Shown: in pieces, positions 1 to 63,950 of the stretch | Position numbering within the stretch: position 1 is the stretch's first letter | Layout of the letters: the number at the start of each line of letters is the position of its first letter | Made by a program: the position numbers and the translations under genes | The notes under the pieces: generated by a model | Database searches by the model: none | Seen by the model: the letters and a program-made list of their open reading frames with translations, nothing else | What the model was told of the DNA's origin: nothing | Source of the DNA: Sinohyriopsis cumingii | Lineage: Eukaryota > Mollusca > Bivalvia > Unionida > Unionidae | DNA: 64,000 nucleotides | Assembly: GCA_028554795.2 (NCBI GenBank) | Contig: CM068842.1 | Coordinates: 52,135,574 to 52,199,573, forward strand | Reading direction: 5' to 3'

Positions 1-455
1 TAATACAATTTGAAAGTGCTAGACGTTAAAGCACGAATGATTAAATCGTATCCGTTACAGTTTATATAGTTCTCTACTTGACCCCAACTCACAATTAGCA
101 TTTCTAACAAAGAAGCATTAGCTAATATAAAATAACCTTCCAGAATGATCCGGATGTTTATAAATCAAAACCATTACCTGGATTACACTTAGAAAAGTCC
201 AAACCTTAGACCCAAATAAACATATTTAATTATATTAATAATAATACTGATTTAAAACCCATGCATATAGATAATAATTTAGCTGTGTAGTATTTGTTTA
301 CCGTGAATAAAATAAAAAAAGTCAATTTGGGTCAAGCAGAAAAGAACTAATTTTGAACAAGGTCAAGTCCAACATACAATGTTTTATTACAATAGCATGT
401 AATGAAATAAAATAAAATTAAACTAACAAACAAACAATTAACTTAAATATTCAGA
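1..455 (+). repeat. Repeat D copy 1, cut by the window edge
   Basis: This stretch aligns, with many small differences, to about 25,480-25,925 and to the reverse complement of about 44,757-45,240. Shared landmarks are a block reading 'taaagcacgaatga' near the left, 'aataatttagct' in the middle and 'catgtaatgaaataa' followed by 'aacaaacaa' at the right end. It is one end of an unclassified dispersed repeat of about 0.95 kb. No coding potential is visible. The left part lies outside the window. Confidence 0.75.
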
Positions 456-4865: not shown

Positions 4866-5099
4866 TGCCGGACTCTCCACTATAGATAGACACAACCCAT
4901 TAGCAGCTTCTCGGTCAATCGCAGTTCAAAAGTATGCCGATATCTGCAATTCGGACCATCTCGGACTTACTAAATAAGTATTGCCCGATAGCGAATGCGT
5001 CGATTCTTTTATTTAATTCTTAGCTTCCCGGTGAATCCTACGGTCAATCCAACGTGAGAAGTCAAATCAGGCTGCAGATACTCTTTTACAAGCTTTGGG

Positions 5100-5560
5100 A
5101 CTATATGGTCTTCAGCTAAGTTACAGAAAAGATTGAATACTCGCAAGTTTTGTACAATTCAACAAATAATTTATTTCTCTAAAATACAAAGTGAACATTT
5201 AAAAAACACTTAAGAGTATTGTGAATTAAATCTCAAATTGTCCTCCAAGTTCTATCACAAATCCAGAAGTATAGAGTGATCAAAATTAATTCCAATTTTT
5301 AATGCGCTGATGTACCAATAACCCGAAATAGTTTTGATGTGCCGAAAGTCTTTATCACAGTGATACAACGTAATGAAATGAATTCACAATAATTCCAAAA
5401 TAGTGGTTAAGTGTTATTACTTAAAATATCCATCCCATCCAATGCTGTCTCCTGACCTTGACCAGCAGTCTACTGTATGAAAATGCATGCAATTGATGTA
5501 TTCTCAGCAATTAATGAATGTCAACTTAGCAGAAGACACACTTTAAATATATAATTTCAT
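5100..5560 (+). repeat. Repeat D copy 2, diverged and partial
   Basis: Homology to repeat D is clearest at 5,110-5,195. The order 'agctaagttacagaaaag', then 'caacaaataatt', then 'aaaatacaaagtgaaca' matches the left end of the D copy that carries the 22.67-25.08 kb transposon. It also matches the reverse complement of about 45,580-45,710. Importantly, this copy runs uninterrupted through the point where that transposon is inserted in copy 4, so it serves as an empty site. Similarity fades toward 5,560. Confidence 0.6.
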
Positions 5561-14271: not shown

Positions 14272-14950
14272 TGTATATTTAATTTGAATTGTTTGTTAGA
14301 TTTTAAATTTCATTTTATGCAATACTTAATTGAATTTTGGACCTGACTTTGTGGAAAATTAAATCATTTCTACCTGACCTGAATCATTTTTTTTTATTTT
14401 GTAAACATGTTTATCTCAATCCGAGTCCAAAACATTGCAAGTGCACCATGAAATTCTGGGTGTACCTGCTGTTCACTACATTTTATAGTATATTTTTAGG
14501 AACAGACATTCCAATTATAACTAAGAATTTATCTTGTAAACAAAAAAATTTCAGAAGGTTATTTTCCATTAGGTAATACCTTTTCTTAGAAAATGATAAT
14601 AATGACCCGAGGTCAAGGAGATGACCATGTAATATCGGTTTTCTATCAATTATTTACTCGTCCGTTAAGATTATAACGGAATCAGTTATCTTATTGTTGT
14701 GTCCAGTATTTCATTTGGGTTGGAACTTAATTATTCAATTTCAATTATTTGTCTCTGGAAATACAAAGTGATCAAGAAAACAATCTTTGAAATAGAGTTG
14801 CATTTATTTTAGAACAACACTAACGATTGTTTTGAACTTATTCATCTGGACTTGCTATCCAAATTCTAGGATTATTTGGGATTTATTTCCCAAAACCGTA
14901 AGTTATGTTTACATTTTTCACTTTCTATTTTTGGGAAGTCAGCTATTTGT
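14272..14950 (-). repeat. Repeat D copy 3, inserted in the 39-bp array
   Basis: In plus orientation this segment follows the same order of landmarks as 44,757-45,610: 'tatatttaatttg', 'tttgttag', 'ggacctgacttt', 'ctacctgacctga', 'aaggttattttcc', 'gacccgaggtcaag', 'ctggaaa', 'gtaagtt', 'tttttcactttct'. It carries internal deletions relative to copy 5. It is flanked on both sides by units of the same 39-bp minisatellite, so it most likely inserted into a pre-existing array. Confidence 0.7.
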
Positions 14951-16434: not shown

Positions 16435-18243
16435 TCATGACCTAATGTGGTCGTTGAGGCACTGTGCTGCTGAACATCTGACCAGTTCCCTCCACTTGTC
16501 TCGATCATGTGCCAATGCCTGTGTCTCCGCAAAACTTTTCCTGGTCCATTCTGTGATGTTGTCAGTCCACTTTTTTCTCTGTCTACCTCTCCTTCTGCCA
16601 CCCTCGATGCTGCCCTGCGGGACTGTTGTGGATAGACTGTTGGCTCTAGTGACATGGCCATACCATTTCAGCTTTCTCTTTTTGACGGTGGTGAGGAGGT
16701 CCTCATATTGGCCTACTTCGCGCCTGATGGTGTTACGCACTTCTTCATTTGTGATGTGATCCATGTAAGAGATGCCAAGGATGGTTCTGTAGCATCTCAT
16801 TTCAAGTGACTGGATTCTTCGTTGTAATTCTGCTGTCAGGGTCCATGCCTCACATGAGTACGAAAAGACTGAGATGACTAGAGCTCGCAGTAGTCTGATT
16901 TTAGTTTTCAGACAGATATTCTTGTCTCTCCAGATGGGTCTTAGCTTTGACATAGCTGCCATTGTTTGTGCTGCTCTTGACAAAATTTCTGCTCTTGATC
17001 CCTCTTCAGTGATTATGGAACCAAGATATTTGAACTGGCTCACTGTTTCCAGTTCATGTCCTCTGACTTTAATCTTGGCTGAGATTTGTATGCCACTATT
17101 TGTCATCAGTTTTGTCTTCTCAGCGCTTATCTCCATGTCAAATCTGGAAGATGTTTCATCCAGGTTCTTCACTAAGGTGGCTAGCTCGTCTTCACTGCCT
17201 GCCAGCCCATCAATGTCGTCTGCAAAGCGGAGGTTGGTGATGTTACGCCCTCCAGTGCTGACTGTCCCACAGTGGTTTTCCAGGGCTTCCCTCATGATGC
17301 GCTCTAAGTAGATGTTGAAAAGCGTGGGTGACAGGAGACAGCTTTGACGCACTCCCACTGTTGTCTGGAACCAGTCCCCCACAGCACCTTGGGCAATTAC
17401 TGCACTGATAGCCTTGGCGTACAGTTGCTTGATGGTATTGGTTAACTTTTGACCCATGTTATACTTCTTCACTGTCGCCCACAATGCCTCATGCCACACT
17501 CTGTCAAAGGCCTTTTTGAAATCTATGAACACATGATAGATGTCTTGTTGGTGTTGCGAGTACTTTTCGCACAGAACCCTGAGATTGAATATTTGTTCTG
17601 TTATGCTTCTTCCACTCCGGAACCCGGCCTGTTCTTCAGCAATTATTTCTTCTGCTTGTGGTTTCAGTCTGTTCAAGATGATCTTCAACATTACCTTAGT
17701 AGCATGGCTGATCAAACTGATAGTTCTGTAATTTTGGCACAGCTGGAGATTGCCTTTTTTGGGAAGTGTTATAATCAGTGACTGGGTCCATTGTGTTGGC
17801 CATTCACCTGTCTGCCAGATCTTGTTGCAGATTTTTGTTAGTAGCTCTTTCACTGATTCTCCCCCATTCTTGATAAGTTCAGCTGGGATGTTGTCTACTC
17901 CAGCTGCCTTCCCATTCTTCAGTGCTCTTATTGCTGACTCCACCTCTTCTTTGAGAATGGGGAAGTCATCATCATTTGAGGAGTTTGGAACTTCAAGCAC
18001 CTCTGGTTCTCCTGTGGACTGATGGTTGTAGAGTTCTTTGCAATACTCAGTCCATCTTTCTGCAATGTCGCTCGCTTCTGTGAGGCATTTTCCATTTTTG
18101 TCTTGAATGGTACTGACTCTTGGTTGTTTCTGTCTGGTGAGGTCTTTCACAATTTGGAATGCATTTTTGCTGTTATTCTTTATCAGACTGTTCTCCATTT
18201 CTGTGCACTTTTGTCCAATCCAATTTTCTTTTGCTTTGCTCAA
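16435..18243 (-). CDS. RTE-like LINE reverse transcriptase (602 codons from first ATG)
   Basis: It encodes the reverse transcriptase that would copy the element's RNA at the nicked target. Visible motifs, in order: a GKAAGVDNIPAELIK block (residues about 111-125); the fingers motif AGFRSGRSITEQI (206-218); palm motif A VFIDFKKAFDRV with catalytic Asp241; motif B GVRQSCLLSPTLFN (297-310); and the catalytic FADD box (340-343, Asp342 and Asp343). A thumb/C-terminal region with a YLGS motif follows, then a basic GRRRGRQRKKW stretch near the end. Most relatives have Gly where this copy has Ser304 in GVRQSC, so activity may be reduced. The ATG at 18,243 is not a natural start. The frame continues upstream in another phase as the endonuclease, and the break is in the 7-base T tract at 18,245-18,251 (plus strand). 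Many smaller frames on the opposite strand are shadows. Confidence 0.92.
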   Translation of the reverse strand: MSKAKENWIGQKCTEMENSLIKNNSKNAFQIVKDLTRQKQPRVSTIQDKNGKCLTEASDIAERWTEYCKELYNHQSTGEPEVLEVPNSSNDDDFPILKEEVESAIRALKNGKAAGVDNIPAELIKNGGESVKELLTKICNKIWQTGEWPTQWTQSLIITLPKKGNLQLCQNYRTISLISHATKVMLKIILNRLKPQAEEIIAEEQAGFRSGRSITEQIFNLRVLCEKYSQHQQDIYHVFIDFKKAFDRVWHEALWATVKKYNMGQKLTNTIKQLYAKAISAVIAQGAVGDWFQTTVGVRQSCLLSPTLFNIYLERIMREALENHCGTVSTGGRNITNLRFADDIDGLAGSEDELATLVKNLDETSSRFDMEISAEKTKLMTNSGIQISAKIKVRGHELETVSQFKYLGSIITEEGSRAEILSRAAQTMAAMSKLRPIWRDKNICLKTKIRLLRALVISVFSYSCEAWTLTAELQRRIQSLEMRCYRTILGISYMDHITNEEVRNTIRREVGQYEDLLTTVKKRKLKWYGHVTRANSLSTTVPQGSIEGGRRRGRQRKKWTDNITEWTRKSFAETQALAHDRDKWRELVRCSAAQCLNDHIRS

Positions 18244-19555
18244 GTTTTTTTCTGATATTCTTGTTTATTTCTAGGTACTTCAATGCCCCTGTTGTGTGTC
18301 TGGTGTTTTTTAGTTCTCTTCGGGCATCACACAACTTCAGAATTTCTTCTGTAACCCAGGGTTTTTTCTTCGGGCGATGGAGGCCAATGATGTCCTTGGC
18401 AGCTGCTGTCATGACTGTGTTGAAGGTGTCTGTCATCTCATTGACATCACCATCCATCACAAGGAGTGGAGCAAATTTTGCTCCAATTGTGGCTTGGAAT
18501 GACTTGCAGATGTTAGGGTCCTTCAGTTGTTCAAGGTTGAATTTGAGCCTGATGTTCTTTGGCTTGTTAATTTTCTTCAACCTCACTCGGAAGTTCATAA
18601 TCATGAGGTCATGATCACTCCCAACATCAGCACCTGGGAATGTCCTTGTTTTTGCTCTATTGATGGCAGATCGATAACGATTTTGAACCAATATGTAGTC
18701 GATCTGGTTGTGAAGAGTTCCATTTGGTGAGTGCCATGTCCAGCATCGTGAAGCTTTATGTTGTCCCAGGGTGTTGGCTAGTTCCAAGTTGTTGTAGCTT
18801 GCGAACTCGAGCAGCCGTCTCCCTCTTTCACTGGTAAGCTCTTTGAAAGAAGGTCCACAATGTATTTCCCAGTCTTTTAAAGCATCTTTGCCAACTTTGG
18901 CATTCCAGTCTCCTTGGACAATAAGGATATCTTTCTTACTGACCATGTTTAGAATACCCTGTAGTTTGTTGTAAAACTCCTCTATTTCTTTATCATCATG
19001 ATCGGTAGTTGGAGCATAGACTTGGATAATTGTGATGTGAAAGGGAGATGCTTTCAGACGAATGGAAATGATTCTGCTAGATATGGGGCAGCATTCAAGC
19101 ACAGATCCCTTGATGGCTTTGTTTACAAGGAAGCCTACTCCATTTATGGACTTGTCACACTCTCCACTATAGTATAATATATGCCCGTCTTCGGTTCGGT
19201 GTTCTCCTAGGGATTTCCATCTAACTTCACAGAGTCCAATAATGTGCCATGTGTAGTGTTCCAGCTCATGTGTCAACTCTTGGAATCTTCCATTTTGCGC
19301 CAGAGTTCTAATGTTCCAGGTGGCGATGGCAATGTTGTCTCTCGCTCTGATTGTATGCATAGTACCAGTAGCACACTTGTCACTTCCGTCCTGGTGGACA
19401 ACGGCAGGCGCAGTCCTTTTTGACCCGGGCGACGACCGATCCGGTATTGTAAGCTCAGATTTGTCCAGCATTATCAGTGTGTCTTGGGCAAACGTCGTCT
19501 GGCGGAGCCCATCCCTCTCCAGACCAAGGAGTTGCCAGAAGGGGATGTAATACAT
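18173..19555 (-). CDS. RTE-like LINE endonuclease domain (460 codons)
   Basis: This is an exonuclease/endonuclease/phosphatase-fold domain that nicks genomic DNA to prime reverse transcription. Motifs seen: TWNIRTL (Asn81), LCEVRW (Glu110), QVYAPTTD (Tyr180), GDWNAKVG (Asp216, Asn218), QIDYILV (Asp286) and GSDHDLM (Asp314, His315). The full catalytic set is therefore present. The first about 70 residues are not recognisable and may be N-terminal extension. A downstream linker (about 330-440) leads to the reverse transcriptase. The last 21 or so residues are out of phase: the same DNA in the neighbouring frame encodes the start of the reverse transcriptase frame. The frameshift lies in the A7 tract (coding strand) at 18,251-18,245. 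This could be an inactivating indel, a sequencing error or, less likely, programmed slippage. Confidence 0.93.
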   Translation of the reverse strand: MYYIPFWQLLGLERDGLRQTTFAQDTLIMLDKSELTIPDRSSPGSKRTAPAVVHQDGSDKCATGTMHTIRARDNIAIATWNIRTLAQNGRFQELTHELEHYTWHIIGLCEVRWKSLGEHRTEDGHILYYSGECDKSINGVGFLVNKAIKGSVLECCPISSRIISIRLKASPFHITIIQVYAPTTDHDDKEIEEFYNKLQGILNMVSKKDILIVQGDWNAKVGKDALKDWEIHCGPSFKELTSERGRRLLEFASYNNLELANTLGQHKASRCWTWHSPNGTLHNQIDYILVQNRYRSAINRAKTRTFPGADVGSDHDLMIMNFRVRLKKINKPKNIRLKFNLEQLKDPNICKSFQATIGAKFAPLLVMDGDVNEMTDTFNTVMTAAAKDIIGLHRPKKKPWVTEEILKLCDARRELKNTRHTTGALKYLEINKNIRKKLEQSKRKLDWTKVHRNGEQSDKE

Positions 19556-20422: not shown

Positions 20423-22604
20423 TTTGGAGTTTCCAGGTCTAATTCTAATAAATAATAAGCATCTCCATCATAAGATATTTCGAGCAGATTTTCTTCTATC
20501 AATTTTATTATTTTCATTATTTACCCATCTAAAGGTATTTACAAGCATGTTAACGAACCATCCATATAAATTATAGGCTAATTGGTACATAATTAACAAC
20601 ATTTACCGTGATATATTATTTTGTCGAAGAAATATTCCTAAATATAGATTGTTGTTTGCTTTTGCGTGTCAATATGGTATTATACTAATTGCACAAGGAA
20701 TTCCATTATGAATCATAAGAATCATAACGTATCAAATTTTTTTAACTGAGTAAGGATATCATTAAACTCGCATCATGGCCAAAAGAGGGTGAACTATAAC
20801 TTGTGATTGGCAAAGCTTGAGGTTTCGTACAAACGTTCTTAAATTCTTCGAAGATATCACACAACATTAAAGTATCCTTTGTCGATTAACAGTAATGAGA
20901 TCGGAAAATATTGGAAGGTTTAAGTGTGTCATCACATCATACATGTACTTGTCTTGGATATATTTTATTCTTAAGTGATGATTGGACCTTTTCTTTTGAT
21001 GATATAGATGTTTCATCGAATCTATTGCACCTTGCAAAGTACTCGTGTACTTTCTCAGAAAATTAGGTTTTATTGCACCAACATGCTATATTGCTTCAGG
21101 TTGCCCCCATGAATCATGAGCTACAGCTGTCTAAAAATATAATAGTTCTTTTCACAATTATTTCCTTACCATCCTAATTTAACCTGTAAGCTACGAAAAC
21201 CTTTTGTCGTTATTTGGTATTATCTTAACATCTTTCATCAAGACTTTCCTTAAACAGGCATCTTTATAAATAGACGGCTATCATGACTAGAAAATGAATG
21301 AAGAGCGGAATGAATCGTCAATATTTGTATATTAAATTTAGTCCTTATGAGCAATGCCTTTGTAGTTATTTGGATTGATTGAAGTGAATATGATCAACAT
21401 GTTGACGTGTCTAACTTATTCAATCTCATTTACTCTGACAGATTTAACACATTTTCTAGCAGCTGTGTTATCGTCATTCTTTATCAACTTCATTCTCAAA
21501 TATTCCCAGTTGTCTCTATTTTCACAGGACGTTTGTCAAACAAATAACTGTATCTATGAAGTACCGGGTTACCAAATAGGCAGAGTAGGCATCGGCCTAG
21601 GGGCCCGACGACAGTGGATCAAAATAATATTGATAAAACGTATTACGAAATAATTTGCGGGGTGGGGGGCTCAAGATTTCGAATACCTAATTGCCCAAGG
21701 GCCTCCACAGGGTTTAATCCGGCACTGTATCTATGAGGTGTGTGCGTGGCAGTATCGGACTTGATAGCGTAAATGAAAGATGTGTCATATTTATTTTATA
21801 CGTTGACACAAACTTTTTATTTTTATTCCATGCAAATCTACTGACGTGATTTCTTTGAGTGCTTACTATTTATATATGTGCAGCATTAACTATACAGTCA
21901 CACAAAGCATCCATTTTGTACTTTAGTTCCTTTTCTGTCTAAATATGGTATGTAAAATAAATGTTGGAAGGCATTATCCATTTCACCTCAGTTCATTATG
22001 TTAATCAGTCTGGTTCTAAAATTAACTGCAGTCATTCTTCTTTCCATCCTTGGTGGGTCTATTTATTTATAAGACTGGTCGTTAAGTCTAGCAGGATCAA
22101 GACAGAATCAATGTTTTAATTTTGCGAATAGATAATCATTTTTTAAGTATAGTTCAGTGTAGATGAACATTCGTACAAGTCTTGATTGTTGCCAACATTG
22201 TCATGAATGAATCTCTTCGTCTTTAAATGATAATTCTGTTAAAAGATTGCTTATTCGTTAAACTTTTATTTTTGTATATGTGTGTGCGCGCGCGTGCGTG
22301 TGTTTGTATGTATGTATGTGTGTCAATGGAACCTGTAACTGTTGTCTGACTTTCTTAGAACTGGTATATATACCATCAAGTCTTCATCGCTGAAATATTT
22401 AAATAGCAATATTTTCAGTATATATTTCACTATCCGTTATTTACTTATAACACTGTGTCCGTGTACTTTGACGTAGCATGCAAATAAAATTCATGATTTC
22501 AAGTTGTACATTACATCGTTGCTTCTGTGACATGGTACGGAAAATCGAATTAATAATGAAATATTATCATGTTTTATTTAAAACCTTAAATGAGATGTGT
22601 TATG
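20423..22604. other. Unassigned AT-rich sequence
   Basis: No gene recognised. It contains a small candidate insertion at 21,560-21,723 and a (GT/GC)n plus (TATG)n patch at about 22,276-22,322. The 92-codon frame at 21,375-21,653 runs into that insertion and has no recognisable domain. Confidence 0.4.
21547..21736. mobile_element. Small candidate insertion flanked by a 13-bp direct repeat
   Basis: ACTGTATCTATGA occurs at 21,547-21,559 and again at 21,724-21,736, and similarity continues for three more bases (AGT/GGT). The about 164 bp between them begins near 'ccgggtta' and ends near 'taatccgg', which are imperfect inverted copies of each other. The interior is G/C-rich compared with its surroundings. 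This fits a small non-autonomous element with its target duplication, class unknown. Confidence 0.5.
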
Positions 22605-22673
22605 AGTATATGCTCTTAAAATAAGTAACATAAAAGAGTTAAAGGCGACAAGCTTTGCAAATTTCAACAAATA
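22605..22673 (+). repeat. Repeat D copy 4, left fragment before the nested transposon
   Basis: It aligns with the reverse complement of about 45,630-45,710 ('gacaagctttgcaaatttcaacaaata' here; kept order 'acaagctttgcaaa', 'aacaaata' there) and with 5,110-5,175. It stops exactly where the terminal inverted repeat of the 2.4 kb transposon begins, and the rest of D resumes at 25,076. Confidence 0.75.
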
Positions 22674-22787
22674 ACACTGGACAACAAATTTTTACAAAAG
22701 TCATGTTACTGAAATAAAATTAGTCAATTCTTATCAATTTTTATGTGCTGAACACGAATATGACAGTCAAATTGCAAAATTGGCTCT
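22674..22787. repeat. Left terminal inverted repeat of the 2.4 kb element
   Basis: About 114 bp. The outer end is ACACTGGACAACA and the inner end is TTGGCTCT. The best-conserved internal block is 'gtgctgaacacgaatat', paired with 'gtgccgaacacgaatat' in the right arm. Confidence 0.85.
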
Positions 22788-22891
22788 AGTTTTTTTGTAA
22801 TCTGCAAGAAATTAATGTTTACATAACGAAATGCATTCCAATAGTAAAAGGTCAACTGTAATAGCCTACCTATAAAAAATCAAGTCATTGA

Positions 22892-24580
22892 CTACATCTT
22901 AGATTTCTTCGCCTGTCTCTTGTACAGCTGTTCGGGAGCATCTCTGAGGAGTGTCCAGCAGTAGTCAGCCAGCATTGTAGTGGACCATTTTCCCTGGTAT
23001 CTTTGTTCCATTGTTGCGATATCTTGATGAAAACGTTCGCCGTGTTCATCACTAACAATACCACAGTTGCTAGGAAAGAAATCCAAATGGGAATGAAGGA
23101 AGTGAATCTTTAGAGACATATTGCAGCCAAGTTTCTTATACTTCATCAACATGTCTTCTACTAGTTCCTTATAGTTTTCTGCCCTAACATTTCCGAGGAA
23201 GTTTGTAGAAACTAGGCGAAAAGCATTCCATGCTTGTTTCGCGTCACCTTCCAGCAAGTTGTTGAACCGGTCATCTTTGAAAAGCTCTCGAATCTGAGGA
23301 CCCACAAAAACTCCCTCTTTAATCTTTGCTTCGCTGAGTCGAGGGAATTTTTCATGCAGGTATCGGAATGCTGGCAAAGTCCGGTCAATGGCTTTCACGA
23401 AGTTCTTCATCAAACCTAGTTTGATGTGAAGGGGTGGTAGCAAGATTTTCTGAGCCTCAACCAGAGCTGGGTGTTGGATATTCTTCTCTCCAATGGCTAC
23501 ATTCTGCCTGTGAGTCCATTCCTTCCTCATGTAGTGCATTTCCCTTGCTCGGCTATCCCACTCGCATAAGAAACACATGTATTTTGTATATCCTTGCTGC
23601 AGTCCCATTAAAAGGGCAACTACCTTCAAATCACCACAGAGGTGCCAGCTGTACTTGTTATACTCAATGGAATTCAGTAGCTGCCTTAAGTTATCGTATG
23701 TCTCTTTCATGTGGACAGCATACGCTACTGGAATAGATGGAAGAATGTTTCCATTGTGCAAAAGCACAGCCTTGAGACTCAGTTTCGAAGAGTCCACAAA
23801 TAGTCTCCATTCTTGTGGGTCATGAGTGATTTTTAAAGCATTCATGAGGCCCTCAATATCGGAACAGAATATCAGATTACTTTCCTTTCTGAAGAAAGGC
23901 TCCAATTGCTGGTGGCGCTTTCGATATGCAGTAATTGTGACATCTTCTTCTAGAAGATTCCATTGTTGGAGTCTTGATCCTAGCAATTCTGCCTTGTTCT
24001 TTGATAAGTCCAAATCACGAATCAGGTCATTTAGTTCTTCCTGTGTTATTCTGTGTGGGGTTGATGATGCACCACGGTGAAAATCTGGATCACTGCATGC
24101 TGATGGACCAGGAGAAGAACAGGTCGACTCACCTTTGTCTTCGTCAGATGAATCAAGAGAATATTCTGCTGGAGGTTCTGGAATAGGAAGTCCCTCACCA
24201 TGTGGAACTGGTCTCAATGCAGACGGAATGTTTGGGTAGACTATTCTCGACTTCTTTCGCTTCGTTATTCCGCCGGAAAGAGGAGGAACCAAGCAGAAGT
24301 AACAGTCATTTAGGTGGTTGCTTGGCTCTCTCCACACCATTGGGACTGCAAACGGCATTGATGACCTTTTGCAATTCAACCACTGTGAAAGCTGTGTTGT
24401 ACATGTAGCACAGCATATATGCGGAGCCCAAGGCTTGTCTTGGTCACCAACCTTGCATCCGAAGTAAAGATGATATGCCTTCTTCACTTGAGAATTGATA
24501 CTTTTCTTCTGGTTGGCAAATGTCACTTCCCCACAAATATAGCAAAAATTGTCCGCGGTATTAACACACTTTCGAGGCAT
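22892..24580 (-). CDS. Uncharacterised cysteine-rich protein, candidate transposase of the TIR element (562 codons)
   Basis: The frame is uninterrupted. The N-terminus has a zinc-finger-like Cys pattern: C13-x2-C16, C42, H54, C56, C57, C60, and a second CxxC at 93-96 (DCYFC). A low-complexity acidic/Ser stretch (about 138-170) links it to a larger C-terminal domain. There I see LFVDSSK (Asp263), CGDLKVV (Asp317), CFLCEWDSR (C336-x2-C339), PLHIKLGLMKNFVKA (His385) and SDEHGERFHQD (Glu512, Glu515). From memory, close relatives with the opening MPRKCVN...FCYxCGE...FGCKVGDQDK recur as multicopy uncharacterised proteins in many invertebrate genomes. The Asp-Asp-Glu order with an intervening CxxC resembles RNase H-fold transposases, but this is inference. 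The start at 24,580 is the first ATG and matches the family start. A TATA-like site lies about 115 bp upstream. Confidence 0.85.
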   Translation of the reverse strand: MPRKCVNTADNFCYICGEVTFANQKKSINSQVKKAYHLYFGCKVGDQDKPWAPHICCATCTTQLSQWLNCKRSSMPFAVPMVWREPSNHLNDCYFCLVPPLSGGITKRKKSRIVYPNIPSALRPVPHGEGLPIPEPPAEYSLDSSDEDKGESTCSSPGPSACSDPDFHRGASSTPHRITQEELNDLIRDLDLSKNKAELLGSRLQQWNLLEEDVTITAYRKRHQQLEPFFRKESNLIFCSDIEGLMNALKITHDPQEWRLFVDSSKLSLKAVLLHNGNILPSIPVAYAVHMKETYDNLRQLLNSIEYNKYSWHLCGDLKVVALLMGLQQGYTKYMCFLCEWDSRAREMHYMRKEWTHRQNVAIGEKNIQHPALVEAQKILLPPLHIKLGLMKNFVKAIDRTLPAFRYLHEKFPRLSEAKIKEGVFVGPQIRELFKDDRFNNLLEGDAKQAWNAFRLVSTNFLGNVRAENYKELVEDMLMKYKKLGCNMSLKIHFLHSHLDFFPSNCGIVSDEHGERFHQDIATMEQRYQGKWSTTMLADYCWTLLRDAPEQLYKRQAKKSKM

Positions 24581-24695
24581 TACTGTTCTTTATTGTACGT
24601 AAATGGATAAAATAATAAGTTTTATGTAACAGTAGCTTGAACTGTCTCGCACAACGTCTGAAATATTTTAAATGCTGAACCTATCTGATTGGGCT

Positions 24696-24814
24696 TTATA
24701 TAGTACACTGCTTACGTCAGCTTCAGCAGCCGCCTGGCATTAGTATAATAGGCCTACACATGTATAGTACACTGCTGACGTCAACTTACTTCAGCAGCCG
24801 CATGGCATTAGTAT
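24696..24814 (-). promoter_or_regulatory. Candidate promoter: TATA box plus two tandem CRE-bearing repeats
   Basis: On the minus strand 'ctatataaag' (about 24,704-24,695) is a good TATA-like site, about 115 bp upstream of the ATG at 24,580. Just upstream, a segment of about 50 bp is present twice in direct orientation (24,698-24,745 and 24,761-24,814). Each copy contains 'tagtacactgct', an ACGTCA motif and 'ttcagcagccgc.tggcatt'. The distal copy has a perfect palindromic CRE, TGACGTCA (24,776-24,783). The proximal copy has TTACGTCA (24,712-24,719). Function is inferred from motif and position only. Confidence 0.5.
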
Positions 24815-24817
24815 TGC

Positions 24818-24840
24818 ATTGCATCAGAAAATGATGCAAT
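24818..24840. repeat. Short perfect hairpin ATTGCATCA / TGATGCAAT
   Basis: Two 9-bp arms separated by 5 bp lie between the candidate promoter and the right terminal repeat. Confidence 0.8.
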
Positions 24841-24971
24841 CAACTGTGGATGATGTGAGCATGATGGTATTATGCAATGTTACATCATTATTCCGGATGT
24901 TGCTGCAGTCCTACTGGAGAAATTTACACAGTGAAACATAGAAAATGAGGTATATGAATATCTTCAAAACG

Positions 24972-25075
24972 AGAGCCAATACAAATTTTTCACGGTTATA
25001 TTCGTGTTCGGCACACCAAAATACTACAGATTAGGGCCTTTTCAAGTCAGTAATGATTTCACTGTTGACCAGTGT
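24972..25075. repeat. Right terminal inverted repeat of the 2.4 kb element
   Basis: About 104 bp. Its reverse complement begins ACACTGGTCAACA and ends TTGGCTCT, pairing with 22,674-22,787. It is shorter than the left arm by several small gaps. Confidence 0.85.
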
Positions 25076-25925
25076 TAATTAAGTTCCCATGAATACAAAG
25101 TGAAAATGATAGAAACGAACTTACGGTATAGCTAATTAAATCACAAAAAAAATCATAAAATGACAGACACAAGTCCTAATAATTTTAAATCCGGAATAAA
25201 ATTTAGTACAAGTCCAAATCAACTCCAAAGACGAAGGTGTTGATCTGCCTTTCATAGCTCGTAGACTAGTGATATGTCTACAGTCATTTGTTGAATCACA
25301 GTAATATAATTCCAGGTTGAATTAACTATGAATTCCAATGAATGTCGCTGTCCAATAATTTTATCAGAGCACTTTTATATATCCAGAAAAAAATAATCAC
25401 TCGAATTCAACAATTTGAAGAAATAAAATGTCTAGCCAAAACATGAAATACTGGTCAAAACATATAATACAGCCTGAAAGTGATAGATCTTAAAGCACGA
25501 ATGAAAAACCATCTCAGTTACAAGATCTCCACTTCACCTCATGTCATAAATATAATTTTCTAAAAACAAACTATTACCTAATGGAAAAGACCCTTCTAGA
25601 ACGATACTGATGTTTACAAAATAAAAACCTTAATCTGGACTATGTAAAAAATGAAACGAAGGAAATTCAAAAACCTAGGCCTAGACCCAGATAAACATAT
25701 TTACTTCGATTAATACTAATACTAATTTTAAACCCGTACACATAGAGAATAATTTAGCTATGTATTGGTTGTTTACAGAATAAAGTCATCTCAGTTCAAG
25801 TAGAAATGAACTCAGTTTTGGACAAAGCCAAGTCCATCATATAATATTACATTACAAATTCATGTAATGAAATAATTAAAACAAAATAACAAACAAGCAA
25901 TGCAAATCAAATATATAATAGCTGT
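25076..25925 (+). repeat. Repeat D copy 4, right fragment after the nested transposon
   Basis: It aligns over its whole length with the reverse complement of 44,757-45,610 and, in its right half, with 1-455. Landmarks are 'gaatacaaagtgaaaatg', 'cttacggtat', 'attacagtaatataattcc'-like blocks, 'taaagcacgaatga', 'tagaccca.ataaacatat', 'aataatttagcta' and 'catgtaatgaaataa'. The length with the left fragment is about 0.92 kb. No coding frame is present. Confidence 0.8.
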
Positions 25926-36248: not shown

Positions 36249-37772
36249 GCAACTAGTATTATTATATGCTCATTTTTCCCCGTTAACTTTACATTGTCAG
36301 AATCGTGCAATATTACAGGATGTTGAACCCGCGCGCCAATACACATATAGCATTCACGTGCATAAAGGAACTACTTTCTATTGTAAACAAACAATGGCCG
36401 CAGATGTCAGCACTTTTGATTTGTAAACAAATCATGTACACTCGCGTAAGAAGCGCTTTACATTGTTCTTGTTTAAATTTTGTTTCTAAATAAACTAAAA
36501 CAGATGTTTCGTGGACTGCCACATACCAGCTGCTTTGGTACATTCCGCGTTGATACAATGTTTTGGATTTAGGCTAGCTACAGTATACAATAGACGGAAG
36601 AAAGGGTCATTACAAATAACATACAAGTGGCAACTCATATACTGTCTTCTTTAGCTGGTGATAAGAATGGCAAAAAAATATACTCACAGTTTTACATCCT
36701 GAATTTTCTCAAAATGTACTTTCATTGTTCTGCAAATCCGAATAACATGAGCCATGTCATAGGGTCTCAATCTTGATTACACATTTCGAAATTGTACTGT
36801 AATTTCGATGATAAGTGCAATTGCATCCTCCTTACTGCGCTCAGAATGAAATAAGCATTTAATTCCATAGCGTCTATTTGATTATTGCAATTGAAAGACT
36901 TCATATTTTTCCCACATTATGATTTCAAACATTCAATGACAGAAACAGAAACACATCTGCAGATGTCAGCACGCTTCTCCCTAGCTTCTTCAATCCCATG
37001 TATTTCATGTGGAATTGTCACATACAATCCAGTCCATAATCACGAAATTTCGTAGAATCGAAACAAATGCAAAAATCTATTCATTCCAGATCAAATGGAA
37101 ATGTTGTTGCAATGCACATTCATTCACATTATGGCTCAAAATTTCAATTTTCACTAGACACGCCATTTTCTTTCGAAAGTTATGTCGAGCGCGCGATTAA
37201 GTTCAAATTTATCTGGGCGGAGTTATGTGCGCAGTAATAATGCTATTGTTGTGTAATGATGAATATGCGTTTGTGTATTTAGTTTGGAATGCGGCATACA
37301 TTCGGTTACTTTGTTTCGTGAAGTATATTTTGTTAATATAATTAAGCATTAGGTAGAATTTTTTAAAAAATAGCATATAATAAAAAGTTGCTGCATTTTT
37401 ATGGGAAAATATGAACTCGTTTTATAGGATGGATATACTGCACTCACAAGGTCGTGCAGTATTTCCATTCGAAAGACTCTTTCGTATTTTCCCATACAAA
37501 TGCAGTAACCTATAATTACTGAACCTTTTCCCGTCTGTATCAACGACACTCAGTTGTTCATTCGGTAAAGAATTCGCTGTTAGTGTTCATCTTTTTGTAA
37601 ATCCGATGTCAATCACCGTAGTAACTTGTAGCAGAAGTTGTAAGCTTTCCAAATAAATTATTTTTTCATTGATTTTTGGGTCGCAATAGAAGGGGATCTT
37701 GGCAGAACTGACCATAATTCCATACGCTACAAGATGCATCCTACTTTGTCTCTAACAAAAAGTTATATCGCA
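36249..37772. other. Unassigned sequence
   Basis: No gene or named repeat recognised. Short frames (60-80 codons) on both strands overlap each other without family features. Confidence 0.4.
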
Positions 37773-38346
37773 CGTATAACGGAACTCGGCATGTATAACG
37801 GAATTCGGCAAATCGGATATATAACGGAATTCAGCCTGTATAACGGAATTCGGCAATTCGGCCTGTATAACGGAATTCGGCTTGTATAACGGAAATCGGC
37901 CGTATAACGGAATTTGGCATGTATAACGGAATTCAGCATACATATCGGAATTCGGCGTGTATAACGGAATTCGGCTTGTATAACGGAATTTGGCATGTAT
38001 AACTCAATTGGCAATTCGGCATGTACAACGAAATTCGGCTTGTATAACGGAATTCAGCATCGGCATGTATAACGTAATTCGGCAATTCGGCATCTATTAA
38101 CGGAATTCGGCAATTCGGCATATATAACGGAATTCGGCCTGTATATCGGAATTCGGCGTGTATAGCGGAATTCGGCTTGTATAACGGAATTTGGCATATA
38201 TAACTGAATTTGGCAATTCGGCATGTATACCGTAATTCGGCATGTATAACGTAATTCGGTATGTATAACTGAATTCGGTCTGTATACCGTAATTCGGCTT
38301 GTATAACGGAATTCGGTCTGTATAACGGAATTCGGCATGTATAACG
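37773..38346. repeat. Minisatellite, 19-bp unit, about 28-30 copies
   Basis: The unit is 'gtataacggaattcggcat' with a variable last one or two bases and occasional 8-10 bp 'ggcaattc' additions. Because 19 is not a multiple of three, each strand cycles through all frames every 57 bp. Several frames of 83-157 codons with a 19-residue repeat stay open by composition. I do not consider them genes. Confidence 0.95.
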
Positions 38347-39153
38347 GTATTGTTTCATGAAAAAGACACAAGATTTAATCCATTTATTCTCTGAATGTTG
38401 GAACATCTATTACATCAAGTAGTACGGATGCTTTGCTTCTATTAAGGCTAACCACGGTTTTTTACATTTTACCCTGGCAAATAATAGTAAATCTCTGTTC
38501 GGATTCTGTCTGGTATATAAATCATGAGTAATTTTATTGATAAAAGACAGCCGCATTCTTTCAGTGATTTCTTTGACTGTATCATATCTAGAATGCGTGC
38601 GTGTTTTAAGGCATAACTTAAAAACTCCCAACTTGCTCAGTTGGTGGAACATTAGACTCGTAATGCAAACCATCCCTGCTCGGCTGCCTGTGTATGTCCT
38701 GGGGAAATGTACTTAGCTCTAATTTCCTAATAATGATATAACCAATATTGTTTTAAAAGCGTTGTTAAAATAAACAAAAAATAAACTTTTCCATAAAAGG
38801 GTGAATAAAGTCATCACCTTTAATTCTCAGCAAGCTTGTGTCAAAGAATCTGGATCGTCTCTAACGAAATTGTGGTTCAGTAACATCACTTTACTACGTT
38901 GCGATCATTAGATAACTTCTGTGATGATGTAAGGTTCTGACGTAAAAACACAACAAAAATATCTTGAATTATCTTTCCATACTGAAATACGATAAACCTC
39001 AGTTCATCCGCCCGTGTACTTGAACATGACATAATTAAAACTGACCCAAGAAAAGAAGAGTTTGTAAGATCCCTGTATCTCATGTGCTATACAAACTTAC
39101 AATTAAGCGAAATAGTAATGGTAGGGAAAAATATACTATGTGTCTAATGTTAC

Positions 39154-44756: not shown

Positions 44757-45710
44757 GTTATGTATATTTAATTTGTTTGTTTGTTAGTTTTTACATTTTG
44801 TTTTATTTCATTACATGCTATTGTGATATAATATTGTATGCTGGACTTGACCTTGTCCAAAATTAAGTTCATTTCTGCTTGACCTGATTGACTTTTTAAA
44901 ATTTCATTTTATGTAAATAACTAACACATAGCTAAATTATTCTCTTTGTGTATGAGCTTAATATCAGGATCTTTATTAATAGAAGAAGTAAACATGTTTT
45001 TTTAGATCAGGGTTTTGGACTATCCTAGTGAATTTGACAGGTTATGGTTTTATTTTGTACACATCTGGATCATTATAAAAGGTTATTTTCTATCAGGTAA
45101 TGGGTTTTTATTTTGAAATTACTAATTGTGACCTGAGGTCAAGTAGAGAACTATATAACCTTTTGATTGTGAGGATCTGGTCATTCGTGCTTTAACATCA
45201 GCACTTTCAAGCTGTATAGTATATGTTTTGACCAGTAGTTTTGGGCTGGAATTTTTTTTTTTTGATCAAATTGTTGAATGAATTTAAGTGATTATTTTCT
45301 CTGGAAACGCTAAAGTGCCCCGATAAAATTCTTGGATAAAGACATTCGCTGGAATTTATACCGAATTCAAACCTGGAATTATATTACTGTGATTCAACGA
45401 AAGACTGCTGGTACATCAACCTTTTAATAGCATCCACAGACACGTCATCGACGTCAGTTTGGGGATTTTTTCTGGACTTTAACTGAGTTTTATTCAAGAA
45501 TTTAAATTGTTAGGACTTGTGCCTGTAATTCTTGGAATATTTTAGGATTTAATTTACAATACAGTAAGTTCTTTTTTTTTTCTTTTTCATTTGCACTTTG
45601 TATTCTAGGGAAAGAAATATATTTGTTAAATTTTGCAAAGCTTGTTGTATTTTTGTCTTTTCTGTCACTTGTTGTAAGCACTCGTAACAATTGTTTAAGT
45701 TAGCTAGGCA
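44757..45710 (-). repeat. Repeat D copy 5, longest uninterrupted copy
   Basis: The reverse complement aligns with copy 4 (22,605-22,673 plus 25,076-25,925) over its full length, and with 1-455 in part. It runs straight through the site where the 2.4 kb transposon sits in copy 4 (about 45,612-45,630 here). At about 950 bp it best defines the family. No coding frame, terminal repeats or tRNA-like boxes are evident, so its class is open. Confidence 0.8.
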
Positions 45711-45872
45711 TGTTCTACCCAAAGCTTGTTAATGAATATATTCCAGACTTTAGATCAGTCAAGAACCATGTGATCGGCCGACAAGAACAACCATAAGAGA
45801 TTGTAAGTCTCTCTCAAAAATCAGAGACCATCGGGAAGAAATCCAACACTATTCAATAGCTGGAATTGGGCA

Positions 45873-49569: not shown

Positions 49570-50372
49570 CCACAGAGTCATTTAGAAATAAAATAATTCA
49601 AACACCTTTTAGTAGCCCACATAGTCATTTAGAAATAAAATAATTCAAACACCTTTTAGTAGCCCACAGAGTCATTTAGAAATAAAATAATTCAAACACC
49701 TTTTAGTAGCCCACAGAGTCATTTAGAAATAAAATAATTCAAACACCTTTTAGTAGCCCACAGTCATTTAGAGATAAAATAATTCAAACACATTTTAGTA
49801 GCCCACAGAGTCATTTAGAAATAAAATAATTCAAACACCTTTTAGTAGCCCACAGAGTCATTTAGAGATAAAGTAATTCAAACACCTTTTAGTAGCCCAC
49901 AGAGTCATTTAGAGATAAAATAATTCAAACACCTTTTAGTAGGCCACATAGTCATTTAGAGATAAAATAATTCAAACACCTTTTAGTAGCCCACAGAGTC
50001 ATTTAGAAATAAAATAATTCAAACACCTTTTAGTAGCCCACATAGTCATTTAGAGATAAAATAATTCAAACACCTTTTAGTAGCCCACAGTCATTTAGAA
50101 ATAAAATAATTCAAACACCTTTTAGTAGCCCACAGAGTCATTTAGAGATAAAATAATTCAAACACCTTTTAGTAGCCCACAGTCATTTAGAAATAAAATA
50201 ATTAAAACACCTTTTAGTAGCCCACAGAGTCATTTAGAGATAAAATAATTCAAATACCTTTTAGTAGCCCAGAGTCATTTAGAGATAAAATAATTCAAAC
50301 ACCTTTTAGTAGCCCACAGAGTCATTTAGAAATAAAATAATTCAAACACCTTTTAGTAGCCCACAGTCATGT
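49570..50372. repeat. 47-bp satellite array, class A block (about 17-18 copies)
   Basis: Units 'cacagagtcatttagaaata' + 'aaataattcaaacacctttt' + 'agtagcc' are almost identical to one another. The main variants are AAATA/GATA and a recurrent 4-bp deletion giving 'cacagtcattt'. High similarity implies recent expansion or homogenisation. Confidence 0.95.
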
Positions 50373-51852
50373 AGAGACAGAATAATACAAACACAATTTC
50401 GCAGTTCATATAGCCATTTAGTGGGAGAATCATTCAAATACCATTTAGTAATCCATACGTTATTTATAGACAGAATAATTCAAATACCATTTAGTAATCC
50501 ATATAGTTATTTATAGACAGAATACTTCAAATATCATATAGTAATCCATATTGTTATTGACAGAATAATTCAAATACCATTTGGTAGTCCATATATTTAT
50601 TTATAGACAGAATACTTCAAGCGCCATTTAGTAGTCCATACTGTTATTTATAGACAGAATACTTCAAATAAAATGTAGTAATCCATATTGTTATTTATAG
50701 ACAGAATACTTCAAATACCATTTAGTAGTCCATATAGTTATTTATAGACAGAATACTTCAAATACCATTTAGTAATCCATATAGTTATTTACAGACAGAT
50801 TACTTCAAATACCATTTAGTAGTCCATATAGTTATTTATAGACAGAATACTTCAAAAGCCATTTAGTAGTCCACATAGTTATTTATAGACAGAATACTTC
50901 AAATAAAATTTAGTAGTCCATATAGTTATTTATAGCCAGAATACTTTAAATACCAGTTAATAGTCCATATAGTTATTTATAGACAGAATACTTTAAATAC
51001 CATTTAGTAGTCCATATATTTATTTATAGACAGAATACTTCAAATAAAATTTAGTAATCCATATAGTTATTTATAGACAGAATACTTCAAATACCCTTCA
51101 GAAGTCCATATAGTTATTTATAGACAGAATACTTCAAAAGCCATTTAGTAGTCCATATAGTTATTTATAGACAGAATAATTCAAATACCATTTAGTAGTC
51201 TATACAGTTATTTATAGACAGAATAATTCAAATACCATTTAGTAGTCCATATAGTTATTTATAGCCAGAATACTTTAAATACCATTTAGTAGTCCATATA
51301 TTTATTTATAGACAGAATACTTTAAATACCATTTAGTAGTCCATATAGTTATTTATAGACAGAATACTTTAAATACCAGTTAATAGTCCATATAGTTATT
51401 TATAAACAGAATACTTTAAATACCATTTAGTAGTCCATATAGTTATTTATAGACAGAATACTTCAAATACCATTTAGTAATCCATATAGTTATTTACAGA
51501 CAGATTACTTCAAATACCATTTAGAAGTCCATATATTTATTAATAGACAGACTACTTTAAAAACCATTTAGTACTCCAAATAGTTATTTATAGGCAGAAT
51601 AATTCAAATACCATTTAGTAGTCCATATATTTATTTATAGACAGAATACTTCAAGTACCATTTTGTAGTCCATACAGTTATTTATAGACAGAATCATTCA
51701 AATACGATTTAGCAACCCATATAGTCATATACAGGCATAATAATTAAAACACCATTTAGTAGTCCACAAAATTATTTAGAGCTAGAATAATTCCAACGCG
51801 AGTTAGCAGTCAACAGAGTCATTTAGAGATAGAATAATTCAAAAACCATAAA
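50373..51852. repeat. 47-bp satellite array, class B block (about 30 copies), A-like units at the far end
   Basis: Same period and alignable with class A, but the typical unit is 'atagttatttatagacagaa' + 'tacttcaaataccatttagt' + 'agtccat'. Copies differ from each other by several bases. The last few units (about 51,700-51,852) drift back toward class A ('cagagtcatttagagataga'). Confidence 0.93.
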
Positions 51853-61890: not shown

Positions 61891-62874
61891 ACATGACCTG
61901 TCAGTCCTCAGTTGAATAACTATACCATGACCTGTCAGTCCTCAGTTGAATAACTATACAATAACATGCCAGTCCTCAGTTGAACAACTATACCATGACC
62001 TGTCAGTCCTCAGTTGAATAACTATACCATGACCTGTCAGTCCTCAGTTGAATAACTATACCATGACCTGTCAGTCCTCAGTTGAATAACTATACCATGA
62101 CCTGTCAGTCCTCAGTTGAATAACTATACCATGACCTGTCAGTCCTCAGTTGAATAACTATACCATAACATGTCAGTCCTCAGCTGAATAACTATACCAT
62201 GACCTGTCAGTCCTCAGTTGAATAACTATACCATGACCTGTCAGTCCTCAGTTGAATAACTATACCATGACCTGTCAGTCCTCAGTTGAATAACTATACA
62301 ATAACACGTCAGTCCTCAGTTGAACAACTATACCATGACCTGTCAGTGCTCAGTTGAATAACTGTACCATGACCTGTCAGTCCTCATTTGAATAACTATA
62401 CCATGACCTGTCAGTCCTCAGTAGAATAACTATACCATGACCTGTCAGTCCTCAGCTGAATAACTATACCATGACCTGTCAGTCCTGACCAGTCAGTCCT
62501 CAGTTGAATAACTATACCATAACATGTCAGTCCTCAGTTGAATAACTATACCATGACCTGTCAGTGCTCAGTTGAATAACTGTACCATGACATGTCAGTC
62601 CTCATTTGAATAACTATACCATGACCTGTCAGTCCTCAGTAGAATAACTATACCATGACCTGTCAGTCCTCAGTTGAATAACTATACCATGACCTGTCAG
62701 TCCTGACCAGTCAGTCCTCAGTTGAATAACTATACCATAACATGTCAGTCCTCAGTTGAATAACTGTACCATGACCTGTCAGTCCTCATTTGAATAACTA
62801 TACCATGACCTGTCAGTCCTCAGTTGAATAACTATACCATGACCTGCCAGTCCTCAGCTGAATAGTTATACAAT
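61891..62874. repeat. Minisatellite, 34-bp unit, about 29 copies, with a 218-bp higher-order period
   Basis: The unit is 'ccatgacctgtcagtcctca' + 'gttgaataactata'. Variants such as 'ataacatg', 'gtgctcag', 'ctcatttg' and 'cagtagaat' recur in the same order in two blocks. A 14-bp extra segment (tgaccagtcagtcc) occurs near 62,484 and 62,702, exactly 218 bp apart (6 x 34 + 14). The variant 'gtgct' occurs at 62,346 and 62,564, also 218 bp apart. Confidence 0.95.
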
Positions 62875-63950
62875 GTTAGGTATTATTTTAATGCCTAAGA
62901 TCTGGTCCATATGATTACCACCTTGTTCAATAATCAGTTTGGAGAATCTCGCAAAAGTGTACGATCATGTATTATAAAACTGCGTGGATGGTAGAGTGAT
63001 GGAATGACGTCCATTACTTCTTGTCTCGGTTTGTTTTGTTGTGGGTAGATACGCTGTTTTGGCTCCCATGATAGACGGCAACAATATAATAGACAACAAC
63101 AACATCGATTCTACAAGTATTTTCATAATTTCGTTACCACGTCGAACGGAACGAAGGGTTAAATTTATTGTTTGTATACTGCGACATGGTCTAGTACAAA
63201 GTTGCGGAAACAAAGCCGCCCCATAACTCAGAGTCATAACTTTCAAAGTGGATTCTGCCATCGATACTTACGAGGAAGATGGAAGCACGTATCACTTTCA
63301 CCTTGATTTTGAACATCCGTATTGTCCCCCTGTCAGTAAATCGTATTTTGACAGTGTCAACATTCGTATAAAAATAGATCTTCGACAAAATATTCTATTT
63401 TGGATTGGCATAACTGCTTGAAGATGTTCTCGTATACACAAAACGCAAAAACTACTTTCTGAGCCTTAGCTACATCCGTTAACTGTAAGAATAACTACTT
63501 CCGTCTCTACCATTCTCGTCATTTTATTTAACTAAATCGTTTCATTTAAGTTATTCTATAGTTTTGCACTCCAAGTACTGTGAGATTTTATCAGGTACTC
63601 TATATTGCTTGATAAAGGCCAATGAACTGTTCCGTTAGAAACAGCACCAAGACTTCCTCGTAAACAAACGCAGAAATGTACTTCTTGAAGAAAATAAATA
63701 ATAAGGACCAACCTACGCATCAATCACTTGATTTATAGTTAGATCATTGCTTAACTTGACGCAAGACATTACGCACATATATACAAAGGTAATGTCTCCG
63801 TTTGAAAGGGATATATCGTGAAATAAAAGTATCAAAATATAATTATTTTTTACCTGTCTGTACAGTTTATTATATCTTCTCGCAGGTTGTTTGGGACAAA
63901 GTAACTGAACGAAAAATGTCAAGCTATCGAGTACACCAGCAAGTAGTTAC
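62875..63950. other. Unassigned sequence
   Basis: Overlapping frames at 62,965-63,261 (minus, 98 codons) and 63,041-63,226 (plus) show no recognisable motif. No gene is supported. Confidence 0.4.

Follow-up and report, generated by a model that had tools for sequence, protein, structure and literature searches.

The 2400-bp element at positions 22675-25074 of the window (the whole 64,000-nucleotide stretch of Sinohyriopsis cumingii DNA analyzed here) was identified with high confidence as an autonomous Chapaev3 cut-and-paste transposon. It would thus belong to the CMC group (CACTA, Mirage, Chapaev), which is related to Transib and RAG1, and the 562-aa product of its gene is very probably the transposase. 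The Chapaev3 assignment was made by matching termini, target site, size, gene content and transposase motifs to published descriptions. The original prediction had proposed the transposase, or at least the cargo, of an undescribed group of DNA transposons; the motifs of the protein and its linked termini support the first part, and the second was abandoned since the element matches published Chapaev3.

The window copy starts with CACTGG and ends with CCAGTG, one base inside the coordinates first proposed on both sides. Each terminus is an imperfect inverted repeat, about 110-120 bp long and delimited by alignment of the ends (left, 22675-22793, plus strand; right, 24966-25074, minus strand). 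The local alignment score of the termini was 76, a value also reached in 1 of 2952 pairs of 220-bp segments drawn at random from this window, and re-alignment from the CACTGG ends gave 95 identical of 114 ungapped columns (83%), plus 42 gap columns; the imperfect inverted repeats that had been predicted are thus real. With zero mismatches, the 13-mer ACACTGGWCAACA was found in the window at positions 22674 (+) and 25063 (-) only. With up to 3 mismatches there were 34 window matches, a number reached by 68 of 100 shuffles, and the motif is therefore not enriched. The transposase gene was located by ORF listing and homologues as a single open frame of 562 codons (22892-24580, minus strand), with an ATG start and no interruption. 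It is the sole ORF of at least 150 aa in the element (the ORF list covered frames of at least 150 aa), which agrees with the description of an intact gene alone between inverted repeats. Within the element, self-comparison revealed a direct repeat that lies upstream of the ORF (24699-24814) and is composed of 24699-24746 and 24763-24814, 87% alike.

Copies of the element were found by DNA or protein similarity at 36 distinct places (L001-L037 except L008, a second entry for the window copy), and both termini were present at 34 of them by exact 20-mer match. There were two exceptions. L016 breaks off at element base 2190 and so lacks the right end. L027 consists of transposon copies nested within each other, a sign that the element may use itself as an insertion target, too. 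The expected association of gene and termini was thereby borne out, as was the sharing of termini among copies. Flanks were read at 52 distinct places in which both ends were demanded by exact 20-mer. An exact 3-bp duplication was present at 48 of the 52, with the triplets TTA (21), TAA (18), TAT (2) and AAA, CTT, TGG, TTG, TCA, CAA and CTA (1 each), so that TWA accounted for 39 of the 52 two-ended places. None of the 48 duplicated places matched over 4 bp; the flanks of L009 agree over 6 bp as well, owing to a repeated TAA in its flank. The base before the duplication was A in 39 of 48 and the base after it was T in 40 of 48, and the preferred target is TWA between A and T (A/TWA/T), a strong preference and no strict rule. 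Irregular junctions were seen at 4 of 52 places (L001, L020, L033 and L040). L001 is the window copy itself, flanked by TAA on the left (22672-22674) and TTA on the right (25075-25077).

The original prediction had placed the start at ACACTGG with TA on both sides, a reading that held for the window copy only. An undescribed superfamily with TA duplications is accordingly very improbable: the window copy taken alone is readable as TA outside ACACTGG..CCAGTGT, and Pfam is without a model for the protein, but 6 of the first 7 copies recovered had exact 3-bp duplications outside CACTGG..CCAGTG and the TA reading fitted only the remaining one, the window copy. The flanks of the larger set ruled out TA duplication, and the motifs of the transposase are already known from an established clade. 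Tc1/mariner and other TA-duplicating groups were rejected on the same 3-bp duplications.

The window element sits within an interspersed host repeat, and repeat comparison located two related copies without an insertion (5060-5260, plus strand, an empty site, and 45550-45720, minus strand). Since both of these copies lack the element, the window element is an insertion. Pieces of the host repeat, about 71-80% alike, were found at window positions 1-450, 5099-5168, 14528-14622, 22604-22673, 25084-25915 and 44763-45678.

Other repeats were recorded in the window. A LINE-type retrotransposon (16435-19555, minus strand) has two overlapping long frames, one for an endonuclease (18173-19555, Exo_endo_phos) and one for a reverse transcriptase (16435-18243, RVT_1). 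Tandem arrays were present at 49592-51849 (47-bp unit, about 48 copies), at 61892-62875 (34-bp unit, showing higher-order periodicity at 102 and 218 bp) and at 37770-38351 (19-bp unit). On the minus strand of the 19-bp array, a repetitive frame of 157 aa remains without a stop (37933-38406), probably by chance.

The 562-aa protein belongs to a large family. As a query it gave 1999 homologues at E ≤ 1e-3 among 7990 scored, a family profile search gave 2148 of 7988 scored, and the relative P0100 as query gave 2385 of 6805 scored. Among the 120 homologues listed, the longest contig had a median length of 2420 bp and fell within 2000-2800 bp in 93 of 120 cases; such contigs of about 2.4 kb would fit repeat units of the size of the element, and could also reflect generally short contigs. 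Named hosts among the 120 were Ranitomeya variabilis, Pyrocoelia pectoralis and Mythimna loreyi. Few of the listed homologues were named proteins, and the labels were 'hypothetical' or 'uncharacterized'. No Pfam domain was recorded among the 120 listed proteins in each of the three family searches, and a Pfam scan of the window protein matched no model. When 15 members were scanned at E ≤ 10, no transposase model was matched and six families appeared once each; the best match, zf-AD (E 0.0017), was found in 1 of 15 members only and was discarded. A sequence search of the PDB gave no match for the protein and one chance-level match for the profile. Scanned viral and prokaryote contigs held no relative.

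Conserved residues were read from an alignment from which P0010, P0041, P0056, P0059 and P0080 of the 120 listed homologues were omitted. D263, D317, C336, C339, H385, H493, H498, E512 and E515 were invariant in 116 of 116 aligned proteins. L384, which forms the LH motif with H385, was also invariant. Spacings were fixed between D317 and C336 (19), C336 and C339 (3), H493 and H498 (5), and H498 and E515 (17). The distance from D317 to E515 is 197-198 positions, a stretch that includes C(2)C as well as H(4)H. Codons 263-515 (23036-23794, minus strand; coordinates by arithmetic) presumably encode the catalytic core on the basis of these residues, and D263, D317 and E515 (or E512) would be the catalytic residues, with zinc bound by the cysteines and histidines. 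A second conserved region, codons 13-96 (24293-24544, minus strand; coordinates by arithmetic), is rich in cysteine and is a candidate for the Chapa zinc finger: C57, C60, H89, C93 and C96 were present in 116 of 116 proteins, C13 in 111 and C16 in 112 of 116. This N-terminal part would most likely recognize the ends of the element.

In the RAG1 core (PDB sequences), with catalytic and zinc-binding residues as generally assigned, the second D stands 19 residues before the first C of C(2)C, the same distance as in the protein here, and H(4)H and E-x2-E are present in both. Profile similarity between the two was not significant, however (hhalign with a RAG1 profile built from two sequences; probability 0.2%, E 0.26). 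Column shuffles were as good in 79 of 200 trials for the whole protein and in 50 of 200 for the core alone, and the reversed control scored 17.2 vs. 18.4. The best hhalign block falls exactly on the D..CxxC register, an agreement that may be regarded as a hint and not as proof of relationship. In a further difference from RAG1, the element is without a second ORF of at least 150 aa.

Other superfamilies were compared by their motifs and duplications. TWA duplications are typical of PIF/Harbinger. Canonical Harbinger elements make 3-bp duplications (PMC12730594, available part), as the element here does. An origin from PIF/Harbinger, or another superfamily with 3-bp duplications, is nevertheless extremely improbable, as the ends are CAC..GTG, the 15 scanned members lacked any Pfam transposase match at E ≤ 10, and the 197-198 positions between D317 and E515 enclose both of the motifs C(2)C and H(4)H. 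Among the known systems closest to the element are ESTA and the further CMCT lineages EnSpm/CACTA, Mirage, Transib, Plavaka and Lanisha. ESTA elements, reported from fungi, have TA duplications, whereas those here are of 3 bp. SmTRC1, an animal CACTA relative, carries Transposase_21 according to the available part of PMC1636069, and this model was unmatched in the 15 members. For hAT, P, MuDR, Kolobok and Dada, a C/DxxH motif between the second D and E is described in the accessible text of PMC10045372; here it occurred at any one offset in at most 6 of 116 proteins, and these superfamilies were rejected.

Agreement with Chapaev3 extended to both the element and the protein. In Chapaev transposons generally, the termini are CAC..GTG and the protein carries C(2)C, LH and H(4)H motifs, and Chapaev3 duplications are TWA between A and T in all cases examined, as given in the available part of PMC4079192. 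The same ends, described for Merrow, Garfield, Conan and other Chapaev3 families, were found here, the same duplication is preferred, and all three motifs are present in the family. In that source, Garfield is 2,289 bp with 556 aa and Merrow 2,451 bp with 78 + 484 aa, so that full-length elements span 2.3-2.5 kb and about 556-562 aa; the element here is 2400 bp with 562 aa. Its gene has a single exon, unlike those of Merrow and Garfield and like most other Chapaev3 genes, which are mostly single-exon in the same partial source. The Chapa zinc finger is described at the N-terminus of Chapaev3 proteins in the accessible part of PMC4411706, where the protein here has its cysteine-rich N-terminus, and Chapaev3 occurs in widely separated animals, as does this family.

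Differences were noted from the portion of PMC4079192 that was available. The published target is strict, whereas here 9 of 48 duplications were non-TWA, the preceding A was absent in 9 of 48 and the following T in 8 of 48. Junctions here were irregular at 4 of 52 places, vs. TWA for all Chapaev3 examined there. Table 1 of that source gives copy numbers of 1 to 281 per family, vs. about 4,900 exact matches per probe here. An unnamed sister lineage of Chapaev3 within the CMC/CMCT clade, sharing its ends, target site and motifs, would accommodate the non-TWA duplications. It is further favoured by C(2)C and H(3-4)H being motifs of the wider CMCT clade (PMC12730594, as far as its available part goes), and by the fact that the Chapaev3 match was made to descriptions and not to Repbase proteins. 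We consider such a lineage unlikely, as CAC..GTG ends, when taken together with a TWA duplication between A and T, a length of about 2.4 kb and one gene of about 560 aa, fit Chapaev3 as described in the accessible part of PMC4079192. Assignment to Chapaev3 was therefore retained. In the literature covered (titles and abstract openings, with Repbase and most subscription papers outside the search), the family was not described in this genome.

Copy number was estimated across a genome of 2.90 Gb in 1138 contigs, in which the window lies on contig C19. Exact 26-mer matches numbered 4894 for the left end, 4833 for the gene and 4979 for the right end, and reversed 26-mer controls gave 0 matches. 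Over the first 49.5 Mb of contig C1, 94 of 97 listed left ends had a partner right end; 75 pairs were exactly 2400 bp apart, 93 of 94 were within 2295-2402 bp, and one was at 1540 bp. Partners were lacking for 3 of the left ends listed for this stretch and for 6 of 100 listed right ends. Pairing by exact ends misses derivatives with altered ends. About 4,900 copies of 2400 bp correspond by arithmetic to about 11.7 Mb, or 0.4% of the genome, assuming that the C1 sample holds genome-wide.

Completeness and divergence were measured in a position-picked sample of 20 stretches drawn from 100 listed left ends, all on C1; because the probe was exact, young copies are over-represented. The left end was present in 19 of 20 stretches, with 18 copies of 2400 bp and one of 2399 bp. 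An exact 3-bp duplication was seen in 17 of 19, and TWA in 14 of 19. The ORF was intact in 17 of the 18 copies of 2400 bp (the 2399-bp copy being outside this count), and mean divergence among the 18 was 0.41%, in keeping with the suggestion that the window copy is recent. When one previously seen place was excluded, 72 of 80 variable sites in the remaining 17 copies were singletons. Coding changes in this sample were nonsynonymous in 45 of 62 cases, with a proportion of 0.79 expected under uniform mutation, and thus look neutral; the open frames are therefore a mark of youth rather than of selection on the copies. An earlier sample of 31 copies had a mean divergence of 0.19%, with 56 of 63 variable sites being singletons, and 30 synonymous and 13 nonsynonymous changes. 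The ratio of these changes was not used, because the copies came mostly from the protein search and were skewed to intact genes. In a protein search of the genome, 77 of 77 scored candidates (of 9591 at first look) were intact over all 562 codons; besides the window copy, those listed come from C1 and C2 and from the initial 49 Mb of C3, a distribution set by the limit of the listing.

Because the sampled copies are almost identical and mostly complete, the data point to a very recent burst of transposition. We lean slightly towards the stronger reading that the Chapaev3 transposon is mobile now and is invading the whole genome, with about 4,900 near-identical, mostly gene-bearing copies and few deletion derivatives.

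A mechanism may be proposed from these features. The transposase would bind the CACTGG-ended repeats, most likely via its cysteine-rich N-terminus, and pair both ends, and its DDE active site with zinc-binding motifs would then cut the element out. Joining of the excised element to a target, TWA by preference, would leave a stagger of 3 bp, and repair by the host would convert this stagger to the target duplication.

Naming a widespread, Pfam-less family as a probable Chapaev3 transposase would clear false host-gene annotations. The size and freshness of the burst make this a natural family suited to testing Chapaev3 transposition against that of Transib and RAG1. If an invasion is indeed under way, its copies would be far above the range per family in the available part of PMC4079192, and the element would offer a natural entry to the biochemistry of this RAG-like branch of transposases.
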